Shown piece by piece: positions 2,954 to 17,614 of a stretch of DNA of 27,959 nucleotides. Made by a program: the position numbers and the translations under genes. The notes under the pieces were generated by a model, which was not told the origin of the DNA, ran no database searches, and saw only the letters and a list, made by a program, of their open reading frames with translations. Origin of the DNA: a virus; IMG/VR virus record IMGVR_UViG_3300032240_001957, positions 1-27,959 of that record, one strand, 5' to 3'. Position 1 is the stretch's first letter. Each line of letters opens with the position of its first letter.

Positions 2954-3065
2954 TGGTGTGGTCGGCAGGATTCGAACCTGCAAAGGCGTTGTCTAGGACG
3001 TTGCCCAAATCCCAAGCATCGTTTCCCAACGAGCCGGAGGTCTACCATATTCCACTAACGACCAC
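2954..3065 (-). tRNA. Unusually long tRNA(-like) gene, anticodon not assignable
   Basis: A perfect 7-bp acceptor stem (GTGGTCG/CGACCAC), a perfect T-arm (GCAGG-TTCGAAT-CCTGC), a discriminator A and encoded CCA are all present, with a D-loop of Leu/Ser type (GGAAT..GGTAGA). The body without CCA is 108 nt, about 17 more than a type II tRNA needs. Between the D-arm and a likely long variable arm (GGC..GTC-CTA-GAC..GCC) the anticodon region is abnormal. The only strong hairpin there is TCGTT-GGGA-AACGA, with a four-base loop, and no regular 5-bp stem with a 7-base loop forms. It could be a tRNA with a small insertion or a tRNA mimic. A promoter lies directly upstream. Confidence 0.6.
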
Positions 3066-3128: not shown

Positions 3129-4112
3129 ATGATAACCAATTTTCAAACAATACCATTTGAACAAATTGTGCGGTTTGGTCAACGCACTATGTTAGACAAT
3201 CCTCGTTTTTCTACAAGTTGGATCTTAGGTCGCTTCTGTAATTACAACTGCTCCTACTGTTGGCCCTATGCTCGAAGCGATAAAGTTGACCACCAGCCGT
3301 TAGAGGTCTACAAAAGAACAGTAGATCAAATAAAACAACAAGCCCGTGAAAACGGATTTACAGAATTCCATTGGAGCTTCAGTGGTGGCGAACCTACAGC
3401 CTACAAAGATCTAATCGAATTGATTAGACACCTAGATGAAAAAGAATCTAGATATCAGAGTGTTCATATGACTACCAATTTGTCACCAGGATCAAAATGG
3501 TGGAAAAGTTGGTGTGATGCTACAGCTCTATTACAGCGAAGAAGTATCACAGCCAGCTTTCACGATGAGTTTGCCAAGGAGCAAGAGTTTGGTGACAAGT
3601 GTTTACAGTTACAATACGAACTAGTACACGTTACAATCAATCAAGTAATGGTGCCTGAGAAGTTTGACGAGCTGTATGCTCGTATGGAACGGTTCCATCA
3701 GCGTGGAATTAATGTGACACTCAAACCACAGAGTGATCCTACTGCCAGTACGGTAGTCGATGGGTATACTGAAGATATGATCAACAAGATGCAGACCGGG
3801 TTTCCGCAACGTGCCAACGGTGAAGAAGTTTATCAGATAGCGTTATATGACGATGCTAATACAGAATACCTGTTCGACCAGGCAGAAAGATTCAATGCTT
3901 TTGGATTTAATAAGTTTAAAGATTGGAGTTGCAATAGTGGATTCCAAAGTGTTATAATAAGAGGTAACGAAGTCAAAAGGTCGTATAGCTGTCACGACCA
4001 ACCATTAGGCTCTTTGGAAAACTTTGATCTATTTAAGGCCCCGCAGCTCTGTATTACTCCTAGCTGCGTTAGTTCCGCAGATTCAAAAATACCAAAGATA
4101 AAAAATGTATAA
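3129..4112 (+). CDS. Radical SAM enzyme, subfamily A
   Basis: The cluster-binding motif CxxxCxxC appears as GRFCNYNCSYCW with Cys37, Cys41 and Cys44. It is followed by the glycine-rich SAM-binding strand FSGGEPT near residue 87. Such enzymes bind a 4Fe-4S cluster and cleave S-adenosylmethionine to a 5'-deoxyadenosyl radical. Two C-terminal cysteine groups (WSCNSGFQ..., YSCHD, then LCITPSCVS) suggest a further cluster of SPASM or twitch type. The substrate is unknown. It is 327 residues and complete. It starts a plus-strand cassette and overlaps the next radical SAM gene by 8 bases. It is related to the genes at 12823 and 13922, which share the GR-x-CNYDCTYC form of the motif. Confidence 0.92.
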   Translation: MITNFQTIPFEQIVRFGQRTMLDNPRFSTSWILGRFCNYNCSYCWPYARSDKVDHQPLEVYKRTVDQIKQQARENGFTEFHWSFSGGEPTAYKDLIELIRHLDEKESRYQSVHMTTNLSPGSKWWKSWCDATALLQRRSITASFHDEFAKEQEFGDKCLQLQYELVHVTINQVMVPEKFDELYARMERFHQRGINVTLKPQSDPTASTVVDGYTEDMINKMQTGFPQRANGEEVYQIALYDDANTEYLFDQAERFNAFGFNKFKDWSCNSGFQSVIIRGNEVKRSYSCHDQPLGSLENFDLFKAPQLCITPSCVSSADSKIPKIKNV

Positions 4113-5088
4113 CTACGAAGATATTAAATCAATACATCTTGAAGTAACATCAAAATGTCAGGCTCGATGCCCGATGTGTCCTCGCCGATATAATGGCGGA
4201 CCGATGAATCCCTTAGTCACGCTAGATGAAATTACTTTAGAGCAATTTAAGAGTTGGTTCGATCCAGCGTTTTGTTCATCTTTGGATCACTTGAATATGT
4301 GTGGTAATCTAGGTGATCCGATCATTGCCAAGGACACCTTGAAGATATTCGATTATCTTCGAACCTGTAATCCGGATATCATACTTCATATGCACACTAA
4401 TGGCAGTGCAAGAGATACAACCTGGTGGGAGCGGCTAGCCGAATTAGAAGTTAAAGTTATATTTGGTATAGATGGATTAGCAGATACACATCACCTATAC
4501 CGCATTGGCACAGACTGGAATAAGATTATTGAAAATGCCGCAGCATTTATCAATGCCGGCGGATGGGCCCGATGGGATATGCTGATATTTGAACACAATG
4601 AACATCAGGTTGAAGAATGTAGAAAACTAAGCAACCAACTAGGCTTTGTAGATTTTTCAAGTAAGCATACCAGTCGATTTCGTACTGCCGAATTTCCTGT
4701 GTTAGACGATAATGGCAAGCAGCTCTATACACTGAAGCCCACATCTAAGAGTGTTGAAATGATGCCTCTGATAAAATCAGCCATCGCAGAAATAACTCCG
4801 ATTATAAAATGTAAAGCTCAAAGAGATCAACAGCTTTATGTTAGTGCATCTGGAGCAGTGTCTCCTTGCTGTTGGCTCGATATGGAATGGTTTAATCCTA
4901 ACCAATCTAATAGAATTGATTATATGTCTAAGGTTGGAGAGTTTCCTAGTCTCAAGACTCAAACACTAGAGGAAATTTTTGCATCAGGATTTTTTAATAA
5001 GATATCGGGCTGCTGGAATACCACAGGCCTTACCGAATGCTCAAAGAATTGCGGGTCGTTCGATAGATTAAACGAGCAATTCGTCTAA
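4105..5088 (+). CDS. Radical SAM/SPASM enzyme, subfamily B
   Basis: The motif is SKCQARCPMC (Cys18, Cys22, Cys25), near the N-terminus as usual for the core. C-terminal cysteines in SPCCWLD and CSKNCGS fit a SPASM-type auxiliary cluster domain, found in enzymes that modify peptides and some small molecules. The core contains MCGNLGDP and IFGIDGLADTHHLYRI. The protein at 7211-8203, on the opposite strand, is a clear paralogue: IDGL-DT-H-YR, AGG-A-W and HNEHQV recur in the same order and spacing. The two are probably partners or act on related substrates, which I infer from similarity alone. The gene overlaps its upstream neighbour and is followed by a methyltransferase-like gene. Confidence 0.92.
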   Translation: MYNYEDIKSIHLEVTSKCQARCPMCPRRYNGGPMNPLVTLDEITLEQFKSWFDPAFCSSLDHLNMCGNLGDPIIAKDTLKIFDYLRTCNPDIILHMHTNGSARDTTWWERLAELEVKVIFGIDGLADTHHLYRIGTDWNKIIENAAAFINAGGWARWDMLIFEHNEHQVEECRKLSNQLGFVDFSSKHTSRFRTAEFPVLDDNGKQLYTLKPTSKSVEMMPLIKSAIAEITPIIKCKAQRDQQLYVSASGAVSPCCWLDMEWFNPNQSNRIDYMSKVGEFPSLKTQTLEEIFASGFFNKISGCWNTTGLTECSKNCGSFDRLNEQFV

Positions 5089-5097
5089 GGAGGAAAT

Positions 5098-5691
5098 ATG
5101 CAAGTTGATATAAATCACGTTTTATTCTGGATGGATGCTATTCGTGAAAGCGATGATCCTAAACGTACACTTGAAAGTTTCTGGAAGGGACAAATCAAAT
5201 CTAAGATCTGGTTGATAACAAATCTTCGAAAGCAGGTTGACAAATTTGTTTCAATAGACATCCACGGTGGATGGAACGGCGTTTTAGCCAGTCTGTTGTT
5301 CCAATCAGATATCTATGTTTCTCATATACGCAGTATAGATATTGATCCTGCCTGTGAATCAATAGCAAATACCATTAACAAACTAGAGGAAATTTCCGGA
5401 AAGTTTAATGCAGTTACACACGATATGTGTACCATTCCGACAATGGCCGATGTTGTTATTAACACCAGCTGTGAACATATTACACAGGCACAATACGATC
5501 AGTGGTTATCTGGGATACCTAATACTAGCCTTATTGTATTGCAGAGTAACAATTATGATATACCTGAGCACGTAAGAATAGTACAAGGATTAAATGAATT
5601 TGTAGACCAAAGTAATTTAACAGTTCTTTGGAAAGGCGAACTGTCTCTGCCTCTCTACAATAGATATATGATTATAGGAAAGAAGAAATGA
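5098..5691 (+). CDS. Class I SAM-dependent methyltransferase-like protein
   Basis: The 197-residue protein has a Rossmann-like layout: KFVSIDIHGGWNGVLASLL (residues 49-67) as the first strand and glycine loop, IRSIDIDPAC (78-87) as the acidic second strand, FNAVTHDMC (about 103-111) and ADVVINTSCEHI as the motif-IV strand. These match small phage methyltransferase-like proteins of class I. The glycine loop (DIHGGWNG) is less canonical than D-x-G-x-G, and the substrate is unknown. A near-perfect ribosome site, TAAGGAGG, overlaps the stop codon of the upstream radical SAM gene, 7 bases before this ATG. It ends in a 4-base overlap with the kinase gene. Confidence 0.75.
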   Translation: MQVDINHVLFWMDAIRESDDPKRTLESFWKGQIKSKIWLITNLRKQVDKFVSIDIHGGWNGVLASLLFQSDIYVSHIRSIDIDPACESIANTINKLEEISGKFNAVTHDMCTIPTMADVVINTSCEHITQAQYDQWLSGIPNTSLIVLQSNNYDIPEHVRIVQGLNEFVDQSNLTVLWKGELSLPLYNRYMIIGKKK

Positions 5692-6479
5692 CACAACGAA
5701 TTTTAATTATGGGGTTACCTGGTTCAGGTAAAACCACCCTAGCAGAAAAGCTTCTGTGCTTGTTAGAGCAATGCGGCAAAACAGTCACTTGGTTCAATGC
5801 CGACGAAGTGCGTAGGCAATTTGATGATTGGGACTTTAGTGAACAGGGTCGTATACGACAAAGCAAGCGTATGTATGATCTAGCAGAAACCTGCGGCACT
5901 GATTATGCTCTCTGTGACTTCGTTGCTCCGTTAGTTGAAATGCGTCATAACTTTAAAGCAGATTGGACCGTCTGGATGGACACTATCCGCGAAGGTCGTT
6001 ATGCTGATACAAACAAGATGTTCATCGAACCCGAGATCTACGATTTCCGTATCACAGAACAAAACGCAGAGAAGTGGGCTGACTTCATTGCTGACCATAT
6101 AGTTGATAATCGTAGACGTCCACGTTGGGACAACCGAAAAGAAACTGTACAGATGCTGGGCCGTTGGCAACCTTGGCACGATGGGCATAGGGCATTGTTT
6201 GAAAGACTGTTGGCCAAGACTGGGCAGGTAGTTATACAGGTACGTGATGTACAGGGTTGGCAAGACAGCAATCCATTTAACTTCTTTGATGTTGTACGAT
6301 TCATTAGACGTGATCTAGATCCTCTATACCAAGGACAGTATGAAATTATGCTTGTGCCTAATATTGTACACATTGGTTGGGGACGAGGTGTGGGTTACAC
6401 CAGCGGCGAAGAAACATTCGATGATTCAGTAACTGATATTAGCGCCACAAAAATAAGAAAAGATCTAGGACTAAAATGA
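5688..6479 (+). CDS. Adenylylsulfate-kinase-like / nucleotidyltransferase fusion
   Basis: The N-terminal half carries a P-loop (GLPGSGKT, residues 9-16) and the APS-kinase-like series FNADEVRRQF, SEQGRIRQSKRMYDLAE and REGRYADTNKMF. Family members phosphorylate adenylylsulfate to PAPS, the universal sulfate donor. The C-terminal half (from about 150) is a nucleotidyltransferase of the HxGH superfamily: GRWQPWHDGH (158-167) and ISATKIR (251-257), most like NMN-adenylyltransferase enzymes. I see no ATP-sulfurylase-specific motif. A sulfotransferase gene lies next door on the other strand (6649-7209), which supports a PAPS role. The exact substrate of either domain remains uncertain. The ATG overlaps the methyltransferase stop by 4 bases. 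Confidence 0.82.
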   Translation: MTQRILIMGLPGSGKTTLAEKLLCLLEQCGKTVTWFNADEVRRQFDDWDFSEQGRIRQSKRMYDLAETCGTDYALCDFVAPLVEMRHNFKADWTVWMDTIREGRYADTNKMFIEPEIYDFRITEQNAEKWADFIADHIVDNRRRPRWDNRKETVQMLGRWQPWHDGHRALFERLLAKTGQVVIQVRDVQGWQDSNPFNFFDVVRFIRRDLDPLYQGQYEIMLVPNIVHIGWGRGVGYTSGEETFDDSVTDISATKIRKDLGLK

Positions 6480-6652
6480 GAACGCTGATCAAGACCTTAA
6501 CTTGGAGACTAGTTGGGTCTACGTCAACTTTTATAATTTCTTATGTTGTTACGGGCCAGGCCCTAGTTGCTACCGGCATTGCTGTTGCACAAATGATAGT
6601 AAACACTATCTTATATTACATACACGAACTAGTATGGAATAAAATTCGTTAA
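6476..6652 (+). CDS. DUF2061-family small membrane protein (58 aa)
   Basis: The peptide reads MRTLIKTLTWRLVGSTSTF, then two hydrophobic helices (about residues 17-31 and 33-48), and ends YYIHELVWNKIR. This fits the DUF2061 family, whose members start with a basic K(T/S)LTWR segment and end HE-x-(V/L)W-N-K/R-I. The function is unknown. In bacteria, genes of this family sit beside sulfate-assimilation genes (for example next to APS kinase), which agrees with the upstream neighbour here. Its ATG overlaps the fusion gene's TGA (ATGA), and its own TAA overlaps the stop of the convergent sulfotransferase. Confidence 0.85.
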   Translation: MRTLIKTLTWRLVGSTSTFIISYVVTGQALVATGIAVAQMIVNTILYYIHELVWNKIR

Positions 6653-7209
6653 AAAGAATATTTGTATAGGTCAATGTCTTTTTCAAAGGCTTGACCTATT
6701 TTTGCCTTCTGCGCATCAGTGTAGTAGGAACGATAATCATCGTGTTCCGACGTATTGATGTAGGGCAACGGATCGTCACGATTTATGAGCCGTTGTATTA
6801 CGTCAAATTCTTGATTGAGTGTTTCGGCTCGAAATAGATAATCTACTCCGCCCGCAATCCACTCACACTGATTAGTTGTTAGTGTATTCCAACTGTTGGT
6901 GTTGTACTCTAACTTATCAATAAATTCATTCCAGCTAGGGAATTCATCGATAGTGGTTATGTTGTTATCCTCCCAATAGAATCCATACTGTTTGAGATAG
7001 AAGTAAGCACTAACCATACGTGCCCACGGATTACGCACAACGGCAAAAGTACGATTGACTTGCCATAGTTCTTTGATCATAGGTAAAGACGGATGACCTT
7101 TAACTAACTGATGAGGAATTCTAGTCATCCAGCGAACTACACTTGATCCAGCACTCTTTGGAATGTGTACAAAAGTTAAATCGTGTTCAAGTAATGTAAC
7201 CGCAGCCAT
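6649..7209 (-). CDS. Sulfotransferase family protein
   Basis: The 186-residue protein begins with TFVHIPKSAGSSVVRW, whose IPKSAGSS (16-23) is the 5'-phosphosulfate-binding loop of the PAPS-dependent sulfotransferase fold. FAVVRNPWARMVSAYF (55-70) is the 3'-phosphate-binding element, with Arg59 and Ser67 in the expected places. Such enzymes move a sulfate group from PAPS to a hydroxyl or amine of a sugar, peptide or small molecule. The neighbouring APS-kinase-like gene could supply PAPS. It is a compact version of the fold but appears complete. The gene is the last of the minus-strand cassette 8858-6649, one base after the radical SAM gene, and its stop overlaps that of the DUF2061 gene. Confidence 0.88.
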   Translation of the reverse strand: MAAVTLLEHDLTFVHIPKSAGSSVVRWMTRIPHQLVKGHPSLPMIKELWQVNRTFAVVRNPWARMVSAYFYLKQYGFYWEDNNITTIDEFPSWNEFIDKLEYNTNSWNTLTTNQCEWIAGGVDYLFRAETLNQEFDVIQRLINRDDPLPYINTSEHDDYRSYYTDAQKAKIGQAFEKDIDLYKYSF

Positions 7210-7210
7210 A

Positions 7211-8203
7211 TTAATCCTTGTGGTTAAATTTTATTTTACTGTTAGAACAAACTCCAGCACAGGCAGCTAGTCTACCATTGGCATAATCTTTGTTCCAGCG
7301 TTCCGAAACAGAACTAAAGAACGGTCCATTCACAATGGTATCCCAATCAATATTTTTTAGATTAATTTTGTCCTCTCCGTACTCGGACCATAACTCTTGC
7401 CAGCCGTCGTCAAATCGTATTGTGCGAGTGTACATCTGTCCAGACGATAATGGGCAACAGGGAAATAGTCTTCCGGTATGTTCGATGTAGGCAGTTTGGT
7501 TGCGTTGTGCATAGCAGCTAATGGTACTGATATTAGATTGATTCTGAAATTCTATTTTACTTACATATGGAACAACTGTAACTGGTTTAACTGGAATATC
7601 CTTGCCTAGCATTTCGGATAATGTAAACCTGTGAGAAGGCTTAACAAAGAAGTTTTTAAAACCTAGTTTCTTTGATAGTTCTTCAGCTTCGGCAACTTGA
7701 TGTTCATTGTGTTTGAAAGTGATAAATTGCCATTCTGCAATGCCGCCTGCTTGAATAAATGCCTGTGCATTTTCCATTACTTTTTTGTAGTTGACATTTA
7801 CGCGATATATGTGATTAGTATCTTCAAGTCCGTCTATGGCAAATATCACACGTCCACTATTACCCAATGTCTTTGCTAGATCTTTCCAAAAAGTTTGACT
7901 ACGTAAACCGCCATTTGACGAAATAGTGATAAAGGCTTGCGGAGCTCGAGCCCTCATAACTTCGCAGACTTCTAAGAAATTAGGAGCAGCACAGGGATCT
8001 CCGAGTACACCGTTAAACAAAATCTTTTCTATTTCCTGCATTATACGATCGGGAATTCTGTCTTGAAAAAATTCCGTATAAAGATATGTTTCTTCAAACC
8101 ACGTTTTATCACCAGGAGTATTTTCTCGTAGACACATAGGACAGGCAGCATTACAGATAGATGTATTTTCTATCTGCAGTTCTTTAAGCTGTTTGTAGAA
8201 CAT
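7211..8203 (-). CDS. Radical SAM/SPASM enzyme, subfamily B paralogue
   Basis: The 4Fe-4S motif is SICNAACPMC (Cys17, Cys21, Cys24). Downstream come FNGVLGDP, ISSNGG and IFAIDGLEDTNHIYR, all in the same order as in the protein at 4105-5088. C-terminal cysteines in ISCYAQRNQ, FPCCPLS and CAGVCSNSK indicate a SPASM-type auxiliary cluster domain. The 330 residues are complete. The gene overlaps the upstream unknown gene (8184-8858) by 20 bases and is followed by the sulfotransferase, so the three probably form one transcript. The substrate is unknown; a peptide or glycan later sulfated by the neighbour is only a guess. Confidence 0.92.
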   Translation of the reverse strand: MFYKQLKELQIENTSICNAACPMCLRENTPGDKTWFEETYLYTEFFQDRIPDRIMQEIEKILFNGVLGDPCAAPNFLEVCEVMRARAPQAFITISSNGGLRSQTFWKDLAKTLGNSGRVIFAIDGLEDTNHIYRVNVNYKKVMENAQAFIQAGGIAEWQFITFKHNEHQVAEAEELSKKLGFKNFFVKPSHRFTLSEMLGKDIPVKPVTVVPYVSKIEFQNQSNISTISCYAQRNQTAYIEHTGRLFPCCPLSSGQMYTRTIRFDDGWQELWSEYGEDKINLKNIDWDTIVNGPFFSSVSERWNKDYANGRLAACAGVCSNSKIKFNHKD

Positions 8204-8858
8204 TGTCTATTAACTCTGTAGGATAGTTGTGTCGAAAACTATTAAATGCTATCTGCTGTAATTGTCTTGGTGTGCGCAATTCGAGTAGATCTAACGATCC
8301 TAGTTTTTCTTGCCGTCCAGAACTGATCTGTATCAATAACGATTCTACTGTAACAGCTTCGTCGTTTTCTTGATAACAGAAGAACCAGTTAAACGGTATG
8401 AGGGTATCTTGATGTGCTATCCAACTATTAGGATGAAGGCTAATTTTAAATATATCAGCAGCCCGCATTTTCTTTATTAGGTCTAGCCATTGTTCTTGCC
8501 AATCGGGTAATACTTTATTATACCCACCTGCTTTTAGTCCTTGCATAAAGAAATCGTCACCGTGCCATTCTAAAAATATTTTACGATTACTATGGTCGAT
8601 ATCTTTAATTCTCAGTGTAGGAATAGTTTCAGATGCCTGCGAGTGGAATTTAATTTCTTTCAAAAATCGTTCTGTTAGTAGTTCTTCAGTCCACTGCACG
8701 TTTTCATTTTCGTTTTTATGATAACCGCGATCACGATTAAAGCTCATACAGAAAGTTTTGTTATCTGGACTAACATAGGGTGTGTAAACCAAATTGGCTC
8801 GCACCTGTTCTGTTTCCTCTAGGTTATAATAATAATTCCAGTTTGTTAAGTTGACCAT
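8184..8858 (-). CDS. Unknown protein, possibly kinase-like fold
   Basis: I do not firmly recognise this 224-residue soluble protein. Several features recall degenerate protein-kinase-like or phosphotransferase folds: FLKEIKFH (about 66-73) like the helix-C glutamate, KIFLEWHGDDFF (about 93-104) like a hinge, and KISLHPNSWIAHQDTLIPFN (about 138-157) where HPNS could stand for the catalytic HxDxxxxN loop. The expected catalytic Asp is not clear, so it may be inactive or the similarity may be chance. It is first in a minus-strand cassette with a radical SAM enzyme and a sulfotransferase, and its start faces the plus-strand cassette at 8917. Confidence 0.5.
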   Translation of the reverse strand: MVNLTNWNYYYNLEETEQVRANLVYTPYVSPDNKTFCMSFNRDRGYHKNENENVQWTEELLTERFLKEIKFHSQASETIPTLRIKDIDHSNRKIFLEWHGDDFFMQGLKAGGYNKVLPDWQEQWLDLIKKMRAADIFKISLHPNSWIAHQDTLIPFNWFFCYQENDEAVTVESLLIQISSGRQEKLGSLDLLELRTPRQLQQIAFNSFRHNYPTELIDNVLQTA

Positions 8859-8916
8859 AGTTTGTTTGATAATTAAGTAATATATAGCTTAGTTATCCTA
8901 AACAAAGACAGGTAAA

Positions 8917-9051
8917 ATGAAATATCCAATAATAGAAATTAACAATGATCGATACGTAATCGGTGCTACACTAAGATATAAACATTATATCTACCATTTT
9001 AGATATATGAAATTGCGAAAACATTTTGATATCGGAAGACAATATCTATGA
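8917..9051 (+). CDS. 44-aa basic peptide gene of unknown function
   Basis: The frame starts with an ATG at 8917, preceded by ACAGG about 5 bases upstream, and ends in a TGA that overlaps the ATG of the oxygenase gene at 9048 (ATGA), a coupling seen throughout this window. The peptide starts MKYPIIEINNDRYVIG and is rich in Tyr, His, Arg and Lys (...RYKHYIYHFRYMKLRKHFDIG...). No domain is visible. It could be a small regulator, a translational leader for the oxygenase, or a substrate peptide for neighbouring radical SAM or oxygenase enzymes. The last idea rests only on its size and place. Confidence 0.55.
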   Translation: MKYPIIEINNDRYVIGATLRYKHYIYHFRYMKLRKHFDIGRQYL

Positions 9052-10124
9052 AAATAACAAAAATACCTGGTCTGGGTCGATTTGGCATCTACATCGATGA
9101 TGTTGATTTCAATACAATATCCGAAGACGAGTGGGCAGAAATTGGAAAGCTACATTTACAAAATTTAGTCACAATCATTCGTAATACAAATATGTCTTGG
9201 GAAACACAACCTGATTGGTGTGAAAAATGGGGTCCCCGACGCAGTGGTGTGCGCTTCCATATGGAGAAGAAATATAATCAACAATGGAATTGGTTGTTTA
9301 AAGAAGCACAATCTGACAATCCTATCATCAGTAAAGACGATAGAACTCGCATCAAAGCTATCGCTAAGGTACAATATCAAACACCGGCTGGTAAGAGCTT
9401 TATGAAAGTGTCAGGGAAAAAAGATGAGCAAGGAAACGCTCTAGGTATGTTTGCAGAAGGTGAGCTATTATGGCATAGTAATGAATCGGGGACGTTAACA
9501 TTTACACCCGGTGTGTGTTTGTTGGGTGTACAAAATATGGTAGGAAGTGCTACTGGTTTCATCACAACAACCGACTATTACGAAAATGTTAGTAACGCAT
9601 TCCGTAGCGAACTAGATGAAATGATATTGCAACATAGATTTACTCCTGGAGCAATTAATCCCGGATTAAATGCAGAACAGGATGCAATTATGAATGCTAA
9701 TATGTGTCCTGTAGATGATGTTGAAATACCTATGGTTATCACTAGTCCGGGTGGCATTAAAGGACTACACTATAGCACTAACACAATTTACAGCATCAAA
9801 GGGTTAAGCAAAGAGTCTAGCGACGAAATATTCTCTGTAATTAATCGAGAGTTATTTGTAGACAAATATATCTATGATCATTGGTATAAACAGGACAACG
9901 ATTTATTATTTTTTGATAACAGTATTACGTTACATCGTAGACTTGGTGATATTAAAGATCGAGTGGCACATCGAGTGCCTCACGATTATACTAAATTACA
10001 TACCAACTATTGGCAACCATACAGTCAGTTAGATGTTGCAGAAACTTTTGTTAAGGATATAGATTATTATGTAGACTTATGTAATGTTAAAGGATATCGG
10101 ATGACAGACGGTAGTTTATCATAA
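9048..10124 (+). CDS. TauD/TfdA-like Fe(II)/2-oxoglutarate oxygenase with altered metal motif
   Basis: The 358-residue protein follows the TauD/clavaminate-synthase layout. It has an N-terminal region LQNLVTIIRNT, a metal-site segment GELLWHSNESGTLTF (His143), then PGVCLLG, and a distal segment LLFFDNSITLHRR (His296) followed by an Arg-rich stretch (DRVAHRVPHDY) for 2-oxoglutarate binding. The usual HxD/E reads HSN (143-145), with Glu146 next. The metal ligand may be Asn, Glu146 in a shifted position, or lost. Phage relatives of this type are common in marine genomes, but I know no verified substrate. The gene starts inside the stop of a 44-codon gene and is followed after 2 bases by another putative oxygenase. 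Confidence 0.8.
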   Translation: MKITKIPGLGRFGIYIDDVDFNTISEDEWAEIGKLHLQNLVTIIRNTNMSWETQPDWCEKWGPRRSGVRFHMEKKYNQQWNWLFKEAQSDNPIISKDDRTRIKAIAKVQYQTPAGKSFMKVSGKKDEQGNALGMFAEGELLWHSNESGTLTFTPGVCLLGVQNMVGSATGFITTTDYYENVSNAFRSELDEMILQHRFTPGAINPGLNAEQDAIMNANMCPVDDVEIPMVITSPGGIKGLHYSTNTIYSIKGLSKESSDEIFSVINRELFVDKYIYDHWYKQDNDLLFFDNSITLHRRLGDIKDRVAHRVPHDYTKLHTNYWQPYSQLDVAETFVKDIDYYVDLCNVKGYRMTDGSLS

Positions 10125-10126
10125 TT

Positions 10127-10909
10127 ATGATTCGCGGAATAGATTCTCAACCATTTTTAAATTTAGATTCTTATCTTAATATTAAAGAATTTAAATCACT
10201 GCATTACAAAATATGCAAAGGCCTAGTATTGTCCAAACACAAGAAAGAAGGCAATATGGTCAAGCCCGGTGGCTTCGAGGGAGTCTACGACTTACCATTT
10301 AAGCCTTTGTACAAAGCATTGGAAGAATATTACAGCCTTCCTGAAGATCACGAAATTAGAATTTTGGGTAAAGAATTAGGCGAGTACAAGAACCGTGATC
10401 AGTTTATGCTGTTTCTTAAATTGACATTAGGTGCATATGATCCTTATCAGTTTGTATTTTTAAAAACTGAAGATGGTGGTTGGGAAACAAGATTCCAAGA
10501 AAAAGAGTGGACTGAAGATGCAGCACTATTTCCAGAACTTAGACAATGGTTAGAAGACCTCGTCACTGATGGGGTATTTGAATATCTAGGACGTATTATT
10601 TTCTTTAAAGCAGAACACGATTGCCAGATGGCAATGCACCGTGATTTAATATTACCTGACGAACACGACTATTTTAATCATCGCCACGAGTTTATACATC
10701 TGCGCACTAACTTAGATAAGCCGTTTTATATCTGGGATTCGGAATCCGATAAACAGATTTTAGTAGACAGTCACGCTACTTTTTTTAATGATCAAGATTG
10801 GCATTCGGGTGGTAAGGTAAACAAGCAGACATTTAGCTTAAGAGTTGATGGAGTGTTTACACAAGAATTCCGTGCTAAGATTGGCATTGCGCATCTTACA
10901 CATTACTAA
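10127..10909 (+). CDS. Putative Fe(II)/2OG hydroxylase (cupin-type)
   Basis: The 260-residue protein has a likely double-stranded beta-helix in its C-terminal half: CQMAMHRDLILP (His171, Asp173) as HxD, HEFIHLRTNLDKPFYIWD as central strands, then ATFFNDQDWHSGG (His226) and KQTFSLRVDGVF as the distal His and 2OG-binding region. This is the pattern of aspartyl/asparaginyl-hydroxylase-like and other 2OG hydroxylases. The N-terminal 150 residues are unassigned. The ATG lies 2 bases after the TauD-like gene's stop. Its stop TAA overlaps the TAG of the convergent gene at 10906. The substrate is unknown. Confidence 0.72.
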   Translation: MIRGIDSQPFLNLDSYLNIKEFKSLHYKICKGLVLSKHKKEGNMVKPGGFEGVYDLPFKPLYKALEEYYSLPEDHEIRILGKELGEYKNRDQFMLFLKLTLGAYDPYQFVFLKTEDGGWETRFQEKEWTEDAALFPELRQWLEDLVTDGVFEYLGRIIFFKAEHDCQMAMHRDLILPDEHDYFNHRHEFIHLRTNLDKPFYIWDSESDKQILVDSHATFFNDQDWHSGGKVNKQTFSLRVDGVFTQEFRAKIGIAHLTHY

Positions 10910-11394
10910 TCGTCAGTGACAGCAATCTGTAAAGAAATTTTAGGAGTAAATCCTAGGTTAGTTGATCCGTGCCAAACAGTGCTGTGATCGAACATAAACA
11001 CGTCACCTGCTTTATATCCTGTTAAGATTTTATCATCGTAGGCAAATATATGCCCGGGCTCGTAATCTTGGCAGGCCATCCAATACCGTCTTATATTTTC
11101 TTTTTCTGGAAATGTGTCTAAATGTAAGGGAAACATATCTCCAGGATTTAATTTAACAAACCACCATTTGATATTGCCTTTGAAGGGCAAGTTTACACGT
11201 AAATTGAAAACATCTCCCGAGAATACTTCCCACTTGATCTTATTCATATCAAATCCAGCTTCAGACCATTTTGAGTAACTGTCTGATTGGTGACTATCTA
11301 TCGTAGGCTTTGGTCGTAGTTCTCCTCTATTCCCAATAATAAATTTTATTGTCTCGGAGTCAAAACTTGATAAGAAGTTACCTTTGTATAGCAT
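10906..11394 (-). CDS. Putative Asp/Asn-beta-hydroxylase-like 2OG oxygenase
   Basis: In 162 residues the protein shows a compact beta-helix fold: KWWFVKLNPGDMFPLHLDTF with His91-x-Asp93, AGDVFMFDHSTVWHGSTNLG with distal His142, and TPKISLQIAV as the last strand. It resembles the aspartyl/asparaginyl beta-hydroxylase group more than TauD. It stands alone on the minus strand between two plus-strand units. Its start faces the radical SAM gene at 11436 across a 41-base gap containing the palindrome AAATATTT. Its stop overlaps that of the hydroxylase at 10127. It may act with either neighbour, but nothing in the sequence decides this. Confidence 0.72.
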   Translation of the reverse strand: MLYKGNFLSSFDSETIKFIIGNRGELRPKPTIDSHQSDSYSKWSEAGFDMNKIKWEVFSGDVFNLRVNLPFKGNIKWWFVKLNPGDMFPLHLDTFPEKENIRRYWMACQDYEPGHIFAYDDKILTGYKAGDVFMFDHSTVWHGSTNLGFTPKISLQIAVTDD

Positions 11395-11435
11395 AGAAAT
11401 ATTTAGTGGGAGTAGGAAAACGCATAATTAAATTT

Positions 11436-12872
11436 ATGAGCAACGTATACTGGATTCAACCCGAAACAACCGAATTAGGCAAGTGGCAAAAGACCATTGC
11501 CGATATTTCAAAATCACCAAGCTTCTGTGTGCTACCTTGGATACACCTAGCAACACGACCCAACGGCGATATGCGTATCTGTTGTGTTGCCAATGCATCT
11601 GGTGCAGACACTGGAGACTATTCAGTAGGCCTAGTTAAAATGGAAGATGGTAAGCCTGCTAACTTTGCACACGATTTACCAACAGAAGCGTTTAACAACG
11701 ACTATATGAAATCTGTTCGAAAAACAATGTTGGCTGGAGAAATACCGGCTAGCTGTTTAAAATGTTTTAAAGAAGAACAACAGGGAATTGCCAGCAAACG
11801 TGTCTGGGAAACAGTCACTTGGACTTTAGAAGAAAAAACAGATATAGAAGAATTAATACGTGAGACCGAATTAGACGGTAGTGTTCCTTACAAACTAGAA
11901 TATTTAGATCTTCGTCTAGGACATACCTGTAATTTAAAATGTATTATGTGTAGCCCACACGACAGTAGTATGTGGGTTCCAGAGCACAAGAAAGTATTTC
12001 CTATATTCAAGAGTGAGTTAATTAAAAAACAAATGGATTGGGATCAAAAAGATTTCAATAATTACTGGCACGAAAATCCTAAATTTTGGGAGCAAGTATA
12101 CGATCAGATTCCCAACATTAAACAATTATACTTTGCTGGTGGGGAACCTTTATTAATTAAAGAACATAAAATATTTTTAGAAGAAATTATTGCTAGGGGA
12201 TATGCTGGACAGATTAGCCTACGTTACAATACTAATGGGACACTGATCAGCGAAAAATTTATTGACATTTGGAAACACTTTAAAAAGGTCAAAGTAGGTT
12301 TTAGTTTAGATGGAATGGGCGAGCGTGGACATTACATTCGCTATCCTCTAGACTGGACAATAGTTGAACAGAATCTACAGTTGTTAGATAATGCTCCGGA
12401 CAATATACAGACTAATATTGCTCTTGCTGTACAAATACTAAACATCAAACATATTCCAGAATTTATCAAATGGAAAGTTAAAAAGAATTTTAAGAAAATT
12501 AATTTTGATACTAATGCCGGGGATCACATAATGGGTGGTGGATTAGTCGGTGTACACTTGTTATGGATCCCTACTTGGTTAAGTCTACGTGTATTACCTA
12601 AGGAAGATAAACTAGAAGTGCGTGAGTTGTTTGCAGAGCTACAGGAGTGGCTGTGGAAGCATTACACACAGGACAAAGACTTCTGGGAAGTTAATCCGCA
12701 CGGGTGGAAACGTTGGGAAAGTATTTTAGATTGGATGGATCGAGAAGACCACACTAATCTACTGCCAGACTTTAGTGAATATATTTCAACAATGGATCGA
12801 CAAAGGAATACAGATTTTAAAACTATATTCCCTGAGCTGTCACATCTGTTAGATCCATCCAAAGAATCTTAA
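11436..12872 (+). CDS. Twitch-domain radical SAM enzyme, subfamily C
   Basis: The order is reversed from usual SPASM proteins. A small cysteine domain comes first (FCVLPWIHLATRPNGDMRICC, then ASCLKCF), followed by the radical SAM core with HTCNLKCIMC (Cys165, Cys169, Cys172 from this start), then YFAGGEPL and VGFSLDG. This is the twitch-domain radical SAM type seen in many marine phage and bacterial genomes; no activity is established to my knowledge. The frame extends upstream to a GTG at 11406, but the ATG at 11436 gives the family-like start MSNVYWIQ, so I prefer it. Its last 50 bases overlap the 3' end of the opposite-strand gene at 12823. It is a paralogue of 14811-16073. Confidence 0.9.
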   Translation: MSNVYWIQPETTELGKWQKTIADISKSPSFCVLPWIHLATRPNGDMRICCVANASGADTGDYSVGLVKMEDGKPANFAHDLPTEAFNNDYMKSVRKTMLAGEIPASCLKCFKEEQQGIASKRVWETVTWTLEEKTDIEELIRETELDGSVPYKLEYLDLRLGHTCNLKCIMCSPHDSSMWVPEHKKVFPIFKSELIKKQMDWDQKDFNNYWHENPKFWEQVYDQIPNIKQLYFAGGEPLLIKEHKIFLEEIIARGYAGQISLRYNTNGTLISEKFIDIWKHFKKVKVGFSLDGMGERGHYIRYPLDWTIVEQNLQLLDNAPDNIQTNIALAVQILNIKHIPEFIKWKVKKNFKKINFDTNAGDHIMGGGLVGVHLLWIPTWLSLRVLPKEDKLEVRELFAELQEWLWKHYTQDKDFWEVNPHGWKRWESILDWMDREDHTNLLPDFSEYISTMDRQRNTDFKTIFPELSHLLDPSKES

Positions 12873-13929
12873 ACACATCTGCATCACGTGCCTTAGGCAC
12901 ACACATACCGCAGCCACATCGTTGATTAGGACAGATAATAGGGCTAGGGTTTTCTAATCGTAATCTAAGATCTGATAACATTTCTTCTTTATCAGTTAGA
13001 TGTCCCAGAGCTCCTCGTTTTTTATTATGAAGCGCCTGACAGGCCTGATGATGATACACTAACCCGGTGTGCTGATCGATGTGTAGGAAGAACCAATCAA
13101 CCATACAATACCAATCTTTAAATTCAGTATTAACTAATTTTACTGTTTGCCATTGATTGTCGACTTTTGCTTCAAGACATCTACCTCCGCAACAGCCTCG
13201 ACCTAATTGATTGCCTTCAGCCTTTTCAGAACCTGATAAACTGACTCCCATTTTATTAAAAAACCATTCCTGTTGGTCTTTACTATAAATGTGCGAGGTT
13301 CTTCGATTAGTACCGTCGACATCAATAAACCAACCAGAGCGAGTTATATTACCGTCACCGATCGGTCTAGGATTGTATTTTATATTATTGTCATCTAGCA
13401 ATTTACAAACAGACATTGCTTCGTCCCAATAGTCTGCGTGGAGCATAAGATTAACCTGTAGTACAATTTTACTATTGCCTAGATGTAATATGTTATCGAT
13501 AGCTCTCTGCTTGAGATTAGACTGTCCTTCTGCGTGCCAGCTTATAGTAACGCAATCAAGATATTTTAATATCTTTTCTCGATAAGTTGGTCCCCAAGTA
13601 CCGTTGGTCGTTAATTGTAAATTAAAGTTTGGACTGTCAGTTTTAATATATTCTACAAGGTCCCAAAAATTAGGATTAATAGTAGGTTCACCTCCAGTGA
13701 ATACAATATTAACACCTTTGCTTTCTTTACGTAGATTATTGTATTCAGTAGTCCATTCTTTGAGAAAATGATATGTTTTTTTCAATTCTTCAAAACTGTG
13801 GAATGGACTTACAAGGTCGTGATGCTTGGCTTCACAGTAAGTGCAGTCGTAGTTACATCTCCGACCTATATCCCAGGTAACAGCCATTGCTTCTTTATTT
13901 GGTGATCGTATTGCAGTAGTGTTAATCAT
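12823..13929 (-). CDS. Radical SAM enzyme, subfamily A
   Basis: The motif is IGRRCNYDCTYC (Cys25, Cys29, Cys32), followed by VFTGGEPTINP and a TTNGT segment. The C-terminal third is unusually cysteine-rich (GRGCCGGRCLEAK, DWYCMVDW, HQACQAL, CPNQRCGCGMC), which suggests one or two extra iron-sulfur clusters. At 368 residues it is the longest of the subfamily A trio (with 3129 and 13922). The substrate is unknown. It is the last gene of a minus-strand run starting with the PLP protein at 16911, and its ATG overlaps the upstream gene's end by 8 bases. Its 3' end overlaps the convergent radical SAM gene by 50 bases. Confidence 0.92.
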   Translation of the reverse strand: MINTTAIRSPNKEAMAVTWDIGRRCNYDCTYCEAKHHDLVSPFHSFEELKKTYHFLKEWTTEYNNLRKESKGVNIVFTGGEPTINPNFWDLVEYIKTDSPNFNLQLTTNGTWGPTYREKILKYLDCVTISWHAEGQSNLKQRAIDNILHLGNSKIVLQVNLMLHADYWDEAMSVCKLLDDNNIKYNPRPIGDGNITRSGWFIDVDGTNRRTSHIYSKDQQEWFFNKMGVSLSGSEKAEGNQLGRGCCGGRCLEAKVDNQWQTVKLVNTEFKDWYCMVDWFFLHIDQHTGLVYHHQACQALHNKKRGALGHLTDKEEMLSDLRLRLENPSPIICPNQRCGCGMCVPKARDADVFKILWMDLTDVTAQGI

Positions 13930-14818
13930 TTTTAATCTTTGTTAAAGGAATGTCTGCTGCGCAAGTACACCAGTCTCTAGTACATACAACCGGTTCACTA
14001 GGAATGACAAAGCTGCCTGTATAGATGTTTCCTAAGCTGCCGCCAACCCGACAAGTAGCACGATGCACTTCCCCATCCCAATTGATCATTAGGCTTTCAA
14101 GGCCAGCATTGCAAGCCCAACCTTTAAATTGATTTAGATGCAGTTTAATAACATCGTTGCTGTGCATTATTTCTGAATCGTCTATTCTACAATTAGGTTT
14201 TACTGTAGCATCTTGATTTAATATCCATTCGAGATCTTTTCCTTCATATTTTAAATCGTCAAATACATTATGGTCGCCATCAGTCCACCGTATTCTTCTT
14301 ACAGCATACTTAATACCTCTATCGCTGTATTCTTTAACTACTCGACGAACATTATCCATATGGTTGTGATGTGCCATTACGTTGACAAAAAAATCAGTTT
14401 GAGTTCCTGCTTGATATTGTATAATATTTCTATGTACTCGTTCCCAATCGTGTTCAAAGTGTAGACTAAAGATTAAATGGTTAAAAAACATTTCGTTCTG
14501 TAGATACCAGCTACTAGGACGAGTTCCGTTAGTTGTTAGGTTAACCCAGAATACATCCTTACGTCGAAAGTATTCTAATAGATCTTCTATGTCTGGATGC
14601 ACACAGGGTTCACCACCAGTTAGACTAATACGTAAGGGCTTGCCAATGGCCGACAGTTTATCCACAGTTGTTTCGAGTAGATTTATATCAGTGTGTGGGC
14701 TGAAGTGATCGTGTATTGATTCCGGACAATATGTACAGTCGTAGTTACAGCGTTTGCCAAGATTCCATTCAACTTTTAATTGATCTTGATGTGGCCACGC
14801 ACTGGTAACTTTAAACAT
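13922..14818 (-). CDS. Radical SAM enzyme, subfamily A
   Basis: The motif is LGKRCNYDCTYC (Cys24, Cys28, Cys31), followed by SLTGGEPCVHP and LTTNGT. The C-terminal cysteines (GWACNAGLESLMINWDGEV, ATCRVGG, VVCTRDWCTCAAD) fit an auxiliary cluster domain of SPASM type. The protein is closest in layout to 12823-13929 and 3129-4112. It has 298 residues and appears complete. It overlaps both neighbours by 8 bases, so three radical SAM genes and one PLP gene are almost certainly co-expressed here. The substrate is unknown. Confidence 0.92.
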   Translation of the reverse strand: MFKVTSAWPHQDQLKVEWNLGKRCNYDCTYCPESIHDHFSPHTDINLLETTVDKLSAIGKPLRISLTGGEPCVHPDIEDLLEYFRRKDVFWVNLTTNGTRPSSWYLQNEMFFNHLIFSLHFEHDWERVHRNIIQYQAGTQTDFFVNVMAHHNHMDNVRRVVKEYSDRGIKYAVRRIRWTDGDHNVFDDLKYEGKDLEWILNQDATVKPNCRIDDSEIMHSNDVIKLHLNQFKGWACNAGLESLMINWDGEVHRATCRVGGSLGNIYTGSFVIPSEPVVCTRDWCTCAADIPLTKIKND

Positions 14819-16073
14819 AAGGTAGGAACTCCGGAGTTATGTCTGTAAAACTTTGATTACGTGTTTTGTCAAGTTTTTGATTAAATGAAACACAGTCTGC
14901 CCACTTGTCACTTTGATCTTTTCCTCTAAGATAATTTTGATTATCCTGTATCTGCCCTAGGGTGTATTCAAGCAGTTGTGGATTGTCTTTACACATCTTA
15001 AATTCAGGCAATCGACTTTTTACTGCTTCTAGTCTATCGTAGGCAATGTCTTTAAGAGTCTGTGGTAATACCTGTGCTGATAGCAGTCTTGGATGTTCGA
15101 CTCTATGAGAGTGAAATATAATTCCAATGTCGTTTAAAAAATATTCGATTATCTTATCTAGTATAAGAATGTTGCTGACCTGTACAGTAACAGCTCCCAC
15201 GATACGACTGATATTTGGCACAGTCTGTATTTGTTTAATGTTATTGATTAATTCAATCCACGATGCATTGCCGCGAATATATTCGTAGCTTTTGTGTATT
15301 CCGTCAATGCTTACATTAACCGCTACTGATTTAAACTTAGGCCAGTACTCCCAGATAGTGCGATTACTCTTTCCTAACATTGTTAAATTTGTAGCATACT
15401 TGATTTCAATTTGATGACCGTACGGTGCAAGCATATCTAGGATCTTGTAGTGCTGTGGATCCATTAGTGGTTCGCCGCCAGCAAATTCTACACGTCTAAA
15501 ATAAGGGATTAATGTTTCTAAATCTTCCCACCATTGATCGTTATTTTGAAATTTATCTAGGTGAGGTTTATTTTCTAAATCGTAACGTTCTACAATGTCA
15601 TACATTATATGACCCTCTTTCTTATAGAAGTCTTTTACCACACTCCAGTCATTCCAGGCCGTGCTATCCATAGGATGGCACATACGACATTTCAAATTGC
15701 AAAGATTGTTTAGTTTTAATTCAATCGTAGGAATTTCGAAAGGCATAGTAAAATCGTGACGCATCTTGTTCAGCGCATCGGGATACAAATTTATGCGTGA
15801 TTCAGGAATTTTATTTTCTATATGTCTTTGTCTAAGACTTTCTACGCCCTGATCTTCTAATGCAAAGCAAGGTTCGCACTCTGGTGGACGCTCACCGCGT
15901 AGTACCTGTCTACGTATACGCTGCATCACCTCACCGTTCCAATGATACTCTAATGGTGCGTCTTGTATGAATCCAATAGGATGACTACGACAGCAGGCAC
16001 ATATGGCTCCGTCTTCTCTAGTGGCCACCCCAGTGAAAGGGTGCATACAAAATGTTTTACTGTTGTGCGACAT
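14811..16073 (-). CDS. Twitch-domain radical SAM enzyme, subfamily C
   Basis: An N-terminal cysteine domain (FCMHPFTGVATREDGAICACC at residues 8-28, then CEPCFALEDQG) precedes the radical SAM core with NLCNLKCRMC (Cys125, Cys129, Cys132), VEFAGGEPL and VAVNVSIDGI. The same order occurs in 11436-12872, so the two are paralogues on opposite strands. The length is 420 residues. The gene overlaps the PLP-protein gene by 17 bases and the next radical SAM gene by 8. The target is not known. The pairing with an aminotransferase-like protein could mean a nucleotide-sugar or amino-acid-derived substrate, but that is a guess. Confidence 0.9.
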   Translation of the reverse strand: MSHNSKTFCMHPFTGVATREDGAICACCRSHPIGFIQDAPLEYHWNGEVMQRIRRQVLRGERPPECEPCFALEDQGVESLRQRHIENKIPESRINLYPDALNKMRHDFTMPFEIPTIELKLNNLCNLKCRMCHPMDSTAWNDWSVVKDFYKKEGHIMYDIVERYDLENKPHLDKFQNNDQWWEDLETLIPYFRRVEFAGGEPLMDPQHYKILDMLAPYGHQIEIKYATNLTMLGKSNRTIWEYWPKFKSVAVNVSIDGIHKSYEYIRGNASWIELINNIKQIQTVPNISRIVGAVTVQVSNILILDKIIEYFLNDIGIIFHSHRVEHPRLLSAQVLPQTLKDIAYDRLEAVKSRLPEFKMCKDNPQLLEYTLGQIQDNQNYLRGKDQSDKWADCVSFNQKLDKTRNQSFTDITPEFLPYV

Positions 16074-16911
16074 ATCTAATTAATGGGCTAATTCCAACTG
16101 CCTGTCCGTTTTTAAGTGCAAGGTGTATACTCTTAGTGGGAGTTAGATCAAAGTCTTTACAGACTGTATAATAGATCTCACCGTATGTTGTCCATAAGTA
16201 GTCACTTGGAAAGTTTCTTATAAAATATAAACCGATCATTGATACTGCTCTAAGGTTCATTTTGAAATCATTCATCAAGGTAATTGCATCTGGAGTGGTG
16301 TCTTTAGTCCAACGTAGGCCTACGCGGTTCCACCCAAGACCAAGACCTTTGCTAAGGCTGAAGCCAACGGATCTAATAGCGTCATTATTGAAATCAAAGT
16401 TAATATCACGGCAGCAACTATACCAAGCCCCATCGATGTGTACAGCAATCTGTTTATCCAAACATTCATTTAAAATATTCTCCATTTGCTCGTGCTTGTC
16501 TCCTGTGCTAGGAAATGGCATAGCGATTATTAACGGTCTATTAGGTATAAGGTAGCCTGGTACGCTGTATGCTATATCGGGATCGAGACGTTGATGATAT
16601 CGATAATCGCCTTTCAGTGTCTGCACTTTACCCTTCATATAAATGCTATCAATAAATTGTGTGCAGCCTAGACTTATGTCTAACCGATTAAACGAGTCGA
16701 AGCCAGATATATTATTCAAACGACTGTTGAAGAACCAGTCACTGGCTTCTTTTTTAAAATCAGCATAAACTTTGTCAGTAATATCGTTATCCACTCGACC
16801 GTCTAGTATGTTCTGTATAACAGATTCTATTTTAATATCAGACAGCGGTTGAGGGCGTTCGGTCTCTAACCAGCGTTCTTCGTATGTCGGTGCTACCCTA
16901 TATCGTTCCAT
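16057..16911 (-). CDS. PLP-dependent aminotransferase-like protein (paralogue 1)
   Basis: The 284-residue protein has the fold-type-I signature. VHIDGAWYSCC (Asp160) matches the aspartate that binds the pyridine nitrogen of PLP, and GFSLSKGLGLGWNRVGLRW (Lys188) holds the Schiff-base lysine and following Arg. It is shorter than standard aminotransferases (about 350-400), lacking part of the usual N-terminal segment. The closest relative in view is 17598-18512 on the other strand, with the same LGC-QFID, YHQRL, HIDGAW and SLSKG blocks. I chose the ATG at 16911 (MERYRVAPTY); an upstream in-frame ATG at 16965 would run into the divergent gene. The reaction is unknown. Confidence 0.78.
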   Translation of the reverse strand: MERYRVAPTYEERWLETERPQPLSDIKIESVIQNILDGRVDNDITDKVYADFKKEASDWFFNSRLNNISGFDSFNRLDISLGCTQFIDSIYMKGKVQTLKGDYRYHQRLDPDIAYSVPGYLIPNRPLIIAMPFPSTGDKHEQMENILNECLDKQIAVHIDGAWYSCCRDINFDFNNDAIRSVGFSLSKGLGLGWNRVGLRWTKDTTPDAITLMNDFKMNLRAVSMIGLYFIRNFPSDYLWTTYGEIYYTVCKDFDLTPTKSIHLALKNGQAVGISPLIRYVAQQ

Positions 16912-16938
16912 ATTAATATTTACCCTATAATAATAGCA

Positions 16939-16946
16939 TATAAATA
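16939..16946 (+). promoter_or_regulatory. T4-late-promoter-like TATAAATA at a divergent junction
   Basis: TATAAATA lies 5 bases before the ATG at 16952. T4 late promoters use TATAAATA and cyanophage ones NATAAATA as the only conserved element. If used, transcription would begin at or next to the ATG. On the opposite strand, TAAATATT (922-915 within 16900s) lies just before the start of the gene at 16911. Confidence 0.4.
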
Positions 16947-16951
16947 TTTCA

Positions 16952-17614
16952 ATGCTAACCACCACCGAATACCAAATTAGTCAAGAGCAATTGGAAAGAG
17001 CACAGCAGGCTGTTCCCGATAGTGCTACTGTACGTACACCATTGAATTCACCAGCAGGTGATTTCTTTTATGATTATTGGCAGGTCAATAAAGAATATCA
17101 AGGAACTGTTTGGGAAGAAATACTTTCTACATTGCCCGATCACGGTGAAGCAAGGCTTATAAAATTAGCTGAAGGCACCTGTTATACTATTCACGCCGAT
17201 ATCGATGACCGGTGGCACTTAAATATCACTGGCGAGAATTCTTATCTAGTAGATCTTCACAGTAAGGTAATGTATCCAACGATGAACTATCATCGTTGGT
17301 TTTCAATGGATGCAGGTATACTACACTCAGCGGTAAATTTTGGTAACAAGGATAGATACCAATTAGTTGTTCGAAAGTTACTTAACAGGAACGTGTTAAC
17401 AAATCCGGTTAGAATATCTATACACGATATTAAAGAACGTAGGTATCTACTCGATCAATTGATCAGTCCTTGGCTAAACTTTGCCAACAAAAATTCTCTA
17501 ATTACAGATTTTAAAATTGTTGACAACGCTGCGTCTTTTAAAATTGAAGAAAAAGAATTACCGACATTAAAATTATTACTAGATGGGAATTTTAATTATG
17601 ATCAAGATCTTTAA
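16952..17614 (+). CDS. Putative Asp/Asn-hydroxylase-like 2OG oxygenase
   Basis: The 220-residue protein has YTIHADIDDRWHLNITG (His81-x-Asp83) as the first metal-binding strand, YHRWFSMDAGILHSAVNFG (His125) as the distal strand and RYQLVVRKLL with a candidate 2OG-binding Arg. This is the pattern of compact aspartyl/asparaginyl-hydroxylase-like oxygenases. The C-terminal 75 residues are unassigned. It stands between the two paralogous PLP genes, diverging from one (40-base gap) and overlapping the other. The arrangement suggests that all three act on one substrate. No target can be named. Confidence 0.7.
   Translation: MLTTTEYQISQEQLERAQQAVPDSATVRTPLNSPAGDFFYDYWQVNKEYQGTVWEEILSTLPDHGEARLIKLAEGTCYTIHADIDDRWHLNITGENSYLVDLHSKVMYPTMNYHRWFSMDAGILHSAVNFGNKDRYQLVVRKLLNRNVLTNPVRISIHDIKERRYLLDQLISPWLNFANKNSLITDFKIVDNAASFKIEEKELPTLKLLLDGNFNYDQDL

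Follow-up and report, generated by a model that had tools for sequence, protein, structure and literature searches.

The complete IMG/VR record IMGVR_UViG_3300032240_001957 (27,959 nt, here called the window in its whole length) holds, at 3129-18512, a copy of an enzyme cassette that is conserved, modular and rich in radical S-adenosylmethionine (rSAM) enzymes. Its carriers are large phages of the T4 superfamily from fresh and marine waters. The near-fixed core consists of rS6, its neighbour rS7, rS4, an rS2-type enzyme, an AspH oxygenase and a kinase-like protein, usually joined by rS1 and a methyltransferase-like protein (MT), while the exchangeable modules are a pyridoxal 5'-phosphate (PLP) enzyme, an amidinotransferase set, a B12-rSAM enzyme, a sulfotransferase with an adenosine 5'-phosphosulfate (APS)-kinase-like gene, epimerases and extra oxygenases. 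The rSAM genes of the window are labelled by the start of each gene: rS1 (3129), rS2 (4105), rS3 (7211), rS4 (11406), rS5 (12823), rS6 (13922) and rS7 (14811).

An earlier note on this DNA had proposed seven complete rSAM genes of three subfamilies at 3129-16073, forming a phage accessory block with tailoring-type genes, and all of this is upheld. The seven genes are open, without internal stops, and match PF04055 with E-values of 7e-9 to 5e-16 in a whole-contig profile search; with hmmscan six of the seven proteins pass the Pfam cut-off, and rS3 (7211-8203) scores 28.8 against 29.5 bits with its motif intact. The CxxxCxxC motif occurs in seven of the 29 window proteins that are 150 aa or longer, far above shuffled proteins (mean 0.06, maximum 2). 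The CNY-type group comprises rS1, rS5 and rS6 (pairwise identity 22-25%), and the motif GR-x-CNYDCTYC, described as common to the three, fits one of them exactly and the other two approximately, the genes at 3129, 12823 and 13922 reading GRFCNYNCSYC, GRRCNYDCTYC and GKRCNYDCTYC, in that order. The second group, rS2 and rS3, are SPASM-like paralogues (34% identity) in which GGE is replaced by G-x2-GDP. The third, rS4 and rS7, are twitch types (26% identity), each with an N-terminal cysteine domain, and belong to the N-terminal-twitch family NF033640 with 404.7 and 322.8 bits, well above the cut-off of 170 that the other five proteins fall below; we know of no reaction for this family. Auxiliary clusters, held likely for all seven in the note, are compatible with the extra conserved cysteines seen outside the SAM motif in the families aligned. 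Two boundaries had to be moved: position 11436 is an internal ATG of a real gene whose open reading frame (ORF) opens with GTG at 11406, and the block does not end at 16073 but continues to about 18.5 kb with a PLP-fold enzyme, the AspH oxygenase and a second PLP-fold enzyme.

Against the NCBIfam equivalogs for peptide maturases or cofactor enzymes, all scanned rSAM proteins stay below the cut-off (viperin, for example, 52.5 against 180), and identities as QueE (7-deazaguanine), MoaA or viperin were rejected as their scores are at superfamily level only. A pattern-limited alignment scan of 84,980 genomes gave no cellular relative of rS6, the predicted structure of which is a poor model (predicted local distance difference test, pLDDT, 58, and about 30 in the C-terminal part); rS7 has six cellular relatives in the alignment scan, at 23-32% identity. 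A Bdellovibrionales metagenome-assembled genome (L091:7977-12688) has its own run of four rSAM/twitch genes with an integrase-like gene not far away, possibly a prophage or a separate cellular version.

A near-fixed core with exchangeable modules

At least 274 relatives of rS6 are present in viral contigs, the best 80 of these being 74-93% identical to it. Co-occurrence was counted across 43 de-duplicated rS6 loci with enough flank: rS7 is found in all 43, rS4 in 42, an rS2-type gene in 41, AspH and the kinase-like gene in 39 each, rS1 in 34, MT in 28 and PLP1 in 21. The gene for rS7 lies immediately upstream of rS6 in 32 of these loci, and rS4 is usually oriented toward rS6, the slot between them being either empty or occupied by rS5, by another rS6-like gene (rS6b) or by an amidinotransferase set of four genes. 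The earlier note had named two findings that would speak against it, namely unrelated genes without co-occurrence and gene decay in close relatives. What was found is strong co-occurrence of the core and, in place of gene decay, purifying selection on every cassette gene compared with two near relatives (ratio of non-synonymous to synonymous substitution, dN/dS, 0.02-0.16). The history of the block is mosaic: compared with one and the same contig, rS7 has a synonymous divergence (dS) near 0.01, and rS5 and rS6 exceed 1.2. Between the window and contig L008, near-identical phages, dS ranges from 0.01 to more than 1.2 inside the island, pointing to probable recent allele swaps of 6649-8203 and 11406-14818.

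The window contains the following features (coordinates, strand, description).

2954..3065, minus: tRNA-like RNA, 112 nt, encoded CCA (Rfam tRNA 23.1 bits; covariation; 20/20 cassette contigs)
3129..4112, plus: rS1, radical SAM (PF04055 53.6 bits; relatives in 34/43 loci, median 80% identity); C37-x3-C41-x2-C44, GGE 86-88 and, from the alignment, conserved C268, C288, C308 and C313
4105..5088, plus: rS2, SPASM-like radical SAM (PF04055 34.4 bits, SPASM 23.9 bits; rS2-type gene in 41/43)
5098..5691, plus: MT, Rossmann-like conserved protein, probably a methyltransferase from the look of its sequence only (no Pfam match; 28/43)
5688..6479, plus: APS-kinase-like kinase fused to a nucleotidyltransferase-like domain (PF01583 36.1 bits; phrog_10255 2e-44)
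6476..6652, plus: small DUF2061 membrane protein (PF09834 1.4e-18), also adjoining the APS-kinase-like gene in L008 and L082
6649..7209, minus: sulfotransferase (PF03567 36.4 bits; phrog_3347)
7211..8203, minus: rS3, radical SAM, rS2 paralogue (PF04055 30.2 bits whole-contig, 28.8 hmmscan)
8184..8858, minus: conserved cassette protein, kinase-like by eye (39/43; alignment; no family match)
9048..10124, plus: TauD-type 2-oxoglutarate (2OG)-Fe(II) dioxygenase (PF02668 4.6e-16), apparently an insertion special to this phage
10127..10909, plus: ox2, conserved protein, putatively oxygenase-like from an H-x-D...H pattern (32/43)
10906..11394, minus: ox3, conserved protein, putatively oxygenase-like (36/43; relatives often hold several copies)
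11406..12872, plus: rS4, N-terminal-twitch radical SAM (NF033640 404.7 bits; 42/43; alignment)
12823..13929, minus: rS5, radical SAM in the variable rS6/rS4 slot (PF04055 48.8 bits; 14/43)
13922..14818, minus: rS6, radical SAM, most conserved member (PF04055 49.4 bits; at least 274 viral relatives)
14811..16073, minus: rS7, N-terminal-twitch radical SAM, neighbour of rS6 (NF033640 322.8 bits; 43/43)
16057..16965, minus: PLP1, fold-type-I PLP enzyme (model pLDDT 84; 21/43)
16952..17614, plus: AspH-type 2OG oxygenase (profile match to the Cpz10 beta-hydroxylase, 7v4f, 7e-19; 39/43)
17583..18512, plus: PLP2, PLP1 paralogue (40% identity; alignment); its sole close relative in its scan is in L088
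18500..19051, plus: GNAT-like protein, putative acetyltransferase (9/9 GNAT-bearing loci hold the 8184-type kinase-like gene)

Exchange of modules follows rules. The four genes of the amidinotransferase set occur together in 7/7 cases and never with rS6b, and their amidinotransferase is related to HsvA, SxtG and inosamine-phosphate amidinotransferase. A further mutual exclusion is that between PLP1 and the c19/AspH23 pair, the PLP family and c19 being found together in 1 locus and singly in 19 and 16. The form of rS7 tracks this choice: its median identity to the window copy is 76.8% with PLP1 and 62.1% without (p=3e-7, a value that ignores relatedness), with a weaker split in rS4 (p=0.002) and little or none in the internal controls rS6, rS1 and MT. 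Because the form of rS7 follows PLP1, the two enzymes are read as probably acting on neighbouring intermediates, in adjacent steps. In Foldseek the PLP1 model resembles aminotransferases, NifS and C-S lyases (probability 1.0, template modelling score about 0.5).

The assignment of the carriers to the T4 superfamily draws on a 364-kb cassette contig, whose T4 gp23 is 70% identical to those of the jumbo phages PA5oct and Phosso, and on a 61-kb sister contig of the window (L102), which encodes a clamp-loader ATPase with Gp44-lid similarity, PhoH, a 6-pyruvoyltetrahydropterin synthase (PTPS)/QueD-like protein, UDP-glucose dehydrogenase and UvdE. The sister contig also has IscU and IscA genes side by side (L102:12459-13137) with UvdE adjoining. 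In 20 cassette contigs there are 7-13 rSAM matches per contig, and IscU and IscA are each present in 15; the richest contig seen, L216 (G054; 282 kb), has 19 PF04055 matches and the tRNA-like RNA. Sampling of the lineage through its clamp-loader gene gave 17 contigs of 50 kb or more, of which 6 had at least seven rSAM matches and 10 had IscU, so the cassette is common in the lineage, not universal. The closest isolate relatives of Thy1 are in Methylophilales and Limnohabitans phages, a lead only as to the possible host.

The block has a Thy1/virion-type operon on one side and, on the other, a fibre gene encoding an Mtd_N domain. The closest isolate relatives of the TauD-type gene at 9048-10124 belong to the Prochlorococcus phages P-HM1, P-HM2 and MED4-213 (46-48% identity; P-HM2 48%); no close counterpart was noted in the maps of relatives, where this gene was not used as a query. 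Outside the cassette, a small Hc1/histone-like gene at 2722-2910 on the minus strand (62-66 aa), conserved in 21 loci, overlaps the listed ORF 2316-2837, and the annotated start of that ORF is therefore probably internal. At 21.6-27.9 kb, eleven tRNA genes are interspersed with three 2OG-Fe(II) oxygenase genes (22976, 24231, 26706).

The adjoining tRNA-like RNA

The RNA at 2954-3065 (minus strand) was traced from spurious short ORFs upstream of rS1. It folds into a 7-bp acceptor stem, a T-arm, a short D-arm and a long two-part variable arm, with discriminator A and encoded CCA, and its anticodon arm is closed by a GNRA tetraloop (GGGA). The window RNA scores 23.1 bits with the Rfam tRNA model (RF00005), against a gathering score of 29, and nothing in Rfam 15 lies above threshold; ARAGORN misses it on the window as given, and at blastn sensitivity INPHARED phages gave no match. 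More than 120 viral contigs contain a 31-nt pattern taken from its 3' end. Among 57 unique full sequences of 107-114 nt, 37 have a GNRA tetraloop (GTGA, GGGA, GCGA, GAGA, GTAA, GCAA or GAAA) and nine a 7-nt loop that reads CAU or UAU, position 33 being C in most of them. Of the pair cells in 54 sequences, 97.4% are standard, and 13 pairs have changed on both sides, none of 500 shuffles reaching any of these measures; the search pattern itself partly constrained the acceptor and T-arm, and the covariation evidence rests on the variable and anticodon arms.

Like canonical tRNA (RF00005) and the non-canonical tRNAs reviewed in PMC7609411, a review that does not mention phages, the RNA possesses an acceptor stem, a T-arm, a discriminator A and CCA; it differs from them in its length, in the tetraloop that in most forms replaces a decoding 7-nt anticodon loop, and in its score below gathering. 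An ordinary intron-containing tRNA was considered and rejected, since the ARAGORN calls differ among relatives (Pro, His, Tyr) and the arm pairs and caps itself. Most forms of the RNA are predicted to be unable to decode.

The RNA keeps a regular position relative to the cassette. In the window rS1 starts 63 nt from it; rS1 is divergent and close in 91 of 116 RNA-bearing loci, at a spacing of 63 nt in 71 and 64 nt in 18, and all 116 have a TANNNT box ahead of the RNA. A covariance model found it in all 20 cassette contigs chosen by protein, in several of them 17-30 kb from rS6. An exclusive partnership with the cassette was rejected, as about ten RNA-bearing contigs have no rSAM match at all; in three loci among these the RNA stands beside the phosphoesterase gene that borders the window island, an arrangement resembling an empty site. 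The RNA may belong to the lineage as such, with the island placed next to it, and might act as a decoy against tRNA-cutting defences.

What the cassette may make

We tentatively favour, at somewhat less than an even chance, the reading that core enzymes and modules tailor a small sugar- or amino-acid-like scaffold for a surface structure. The core enzymes would act in sequence in the infected cell on one such scaffold, the rSAM enzymes and 2OG oxygenases functionalising C-H bonds, the PLP enzyme or amidinotransferase installing nitrogen groups, and sulfotransfer and methyl transfer providing the finishing steps, while phage IscU and IscA would help to load the many Fe-S clusters. The most likely destination of the product would be a glycan of the host envelope or a fibre of the virion, where it would belong to the host-recognition region that houses the island, and the product would diversify through module swapping.

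Several observations favour this reading, in addition to the conserved core and its gene order, the purifying selection, the alternative modules, the apparent coupling of rS7 and PLP1, the fold of PLP1 and the frequent IscU and IscA genes. Pfam families in the islands of relatives include epimerase, DegT/StrS aminotransferase, UDP-glucose dehydrogenase, FkbM, cupin, halogenase and B12-rSAM. The cassette AspH belongs to the same oxygenase superfamily (E 7e-19) as Cpz10, the small-molecule beta-hydroxylase of caprazamycin biosynthesis (PMC9814697); Cpz10, however, serves a nucleoside antibiotic pathway. Neither a transporter nor a carrier-protein assembly line is among the first 25 Pfam families listed for relatives' islands, which suggests that the product may be retained in the cell or placed on the virion or envelope, and the Mtd_N fibre gene at one island edge counts for a surface structure, as do the rSAM cassettes recorded earlier in host-recognition islands. 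As a separate observation, one flanking gene in these islands matches tryptophan halogenase (PF04820, 1.7e-92), uncommon for phages.

Other points weigh against surface tailoring. The cassette enzymes match no family of known reaction, and no glycosyltransferase was seen among the listed families of relatives' islands, which leaves transfer to a glycan unexplained. The genes may belong to more than one pathway, and the position near fibres may merely mark a recombination hot spot. In the clamp-loader lineage sample IscU tracks rSAM content only weakly, a looseness to which the fragmentary nature of the contigs contributes, and the T4-like phage C48C1 has IscU with no match to any of five rSAM queries; IscU as an exclusive rSAM partner was rejected on this ground. 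Self-supplied Fe-S assembly in rSAM-rich T4-like genomes had been proposed earlier (PMC5332604).

An unlikely alternative is that a ribosomal peptide or a virion protein such as the tail fibre is modified in place, as by the maturases of ribosomally synthesised and post-translationally modified peptides. Peptide modification is the best-known role of SPASM and twitch rSAM enzymes, the combination of B12-rSAM, AspH oxygenases and a methyltransferase-like protein resembles proteusin-type clusters, and fibre genes flank the island. Against these stand the NCBIfam maturase cut-offs, none of which is reached by the scanned proteins, and the SAM motif itself, which begins within the first 37 residues in five of the seven proteins and leaves little room there for a leader-binding domain; PLP, sulfotransfer and amidinotransferase modules are also atypical. 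Across 81 loci no conserved small ORF suited to a precursor was found in the island, which weakens the virion-peptide reading, though a precursor might lie farther away; the in-island candidates proved to be tRNA-like readings, antisense frames or the Hc1-like gene.

It is rather improbable that the cassette makes or modifies a nucleic-acid component, be it a DNA base, a tRNA nucleoside or an aminoacyl group on the adjoining RNA. The spacing of 63-64 nt between RNA and rS1 in 89 of the 116 loci, the presence of the RNA in all 20 cassette contigs scanned, the QueD-like PTPS of the sister contig and 26 PP-loop family proteins in relatives' islands would fit such a role; the contigs with RNA and no rSAM match, and those with RNA far from rS6, do not, and base-modification families gave no match, the QueE scores being weak. 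A special form of it, which we regard as a long shot, would make the RNA a non-decoding tRNA serving as a dedicated carrier, on whose CCA end a charged amino acid would be reworked by rSAM enzymes, oxygenases and the PLP enzyme and then released; if true, a virus would be running a biosynthetic pathway on a tRNA that lacks an anticodon.

A hot spot that gathers unrelated single metabolic genes with no common pathway would account for the variable island composition and for the very different dS between segments of near-identical phages, but is very unlikely, as the fixed adjacency of rS6 to rS7, the joint presence of several core genes in 90-100% of loci, modules that exclude each other and a form of rS7 that depends on PLP1 are unexpected for independent cargo.

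Known radical SAM islands and meaning

The earlier note had called such an investment in radical chemistry unusual for a phage, a view that needs qualification, as multi-rSAM islands are on record in three settings. The Campylobacter phages CP220 and CPt10 have 11-12 rSAM genes (PMC2853527), and the window lineage shares with them the many clustered rSAM genes of a T4-like phage, with gp23 and the clamp-loader as T4 markers. Their cluster is exchangeable as a block and includes amidinotransferases, which in our material are present in 11 loci related to the window and absent from the window itself; the best protein matches are only about 22-26% identical and not orthologous, and the partner set differs. 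The T4-like genome TARA_ERS488813_N000010 combines 12 rSAM genes with Fe-S assembly genes (PMC5332604) and was described as a gene count, with no cassette; it is set beside the window by that description only. Host-recognition islands of pelagimyophages hold rSAM cassettes in the variable tail-fibre region, mentioned there in passing (PMC7029224), and the best isolate match, Pelagibacter phage Mosig, is 25.6% identical to rS2. What was already known is thus that T4-like phages can have multi-rSAM islands; what is new is the defined core with its modules, its wide conservation, the apparent coupling of rS7 and PLP1, and the RNA.

Biosynthetic pathways are seldom credited to phages, yet the cassette is present in hundreds of viral contigs from aquatic sources. 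Next to it there seems to be a new class of tRNA that does not decode, of possible relevance to non-coding RNA in phages irrespective of any part in the pathway. With gene sets now defined, a core of rS6, rS7, rS4 and AspH together with its swap modules, the puzzle of rSAM-rich phages posed in 2010 becomes testable.

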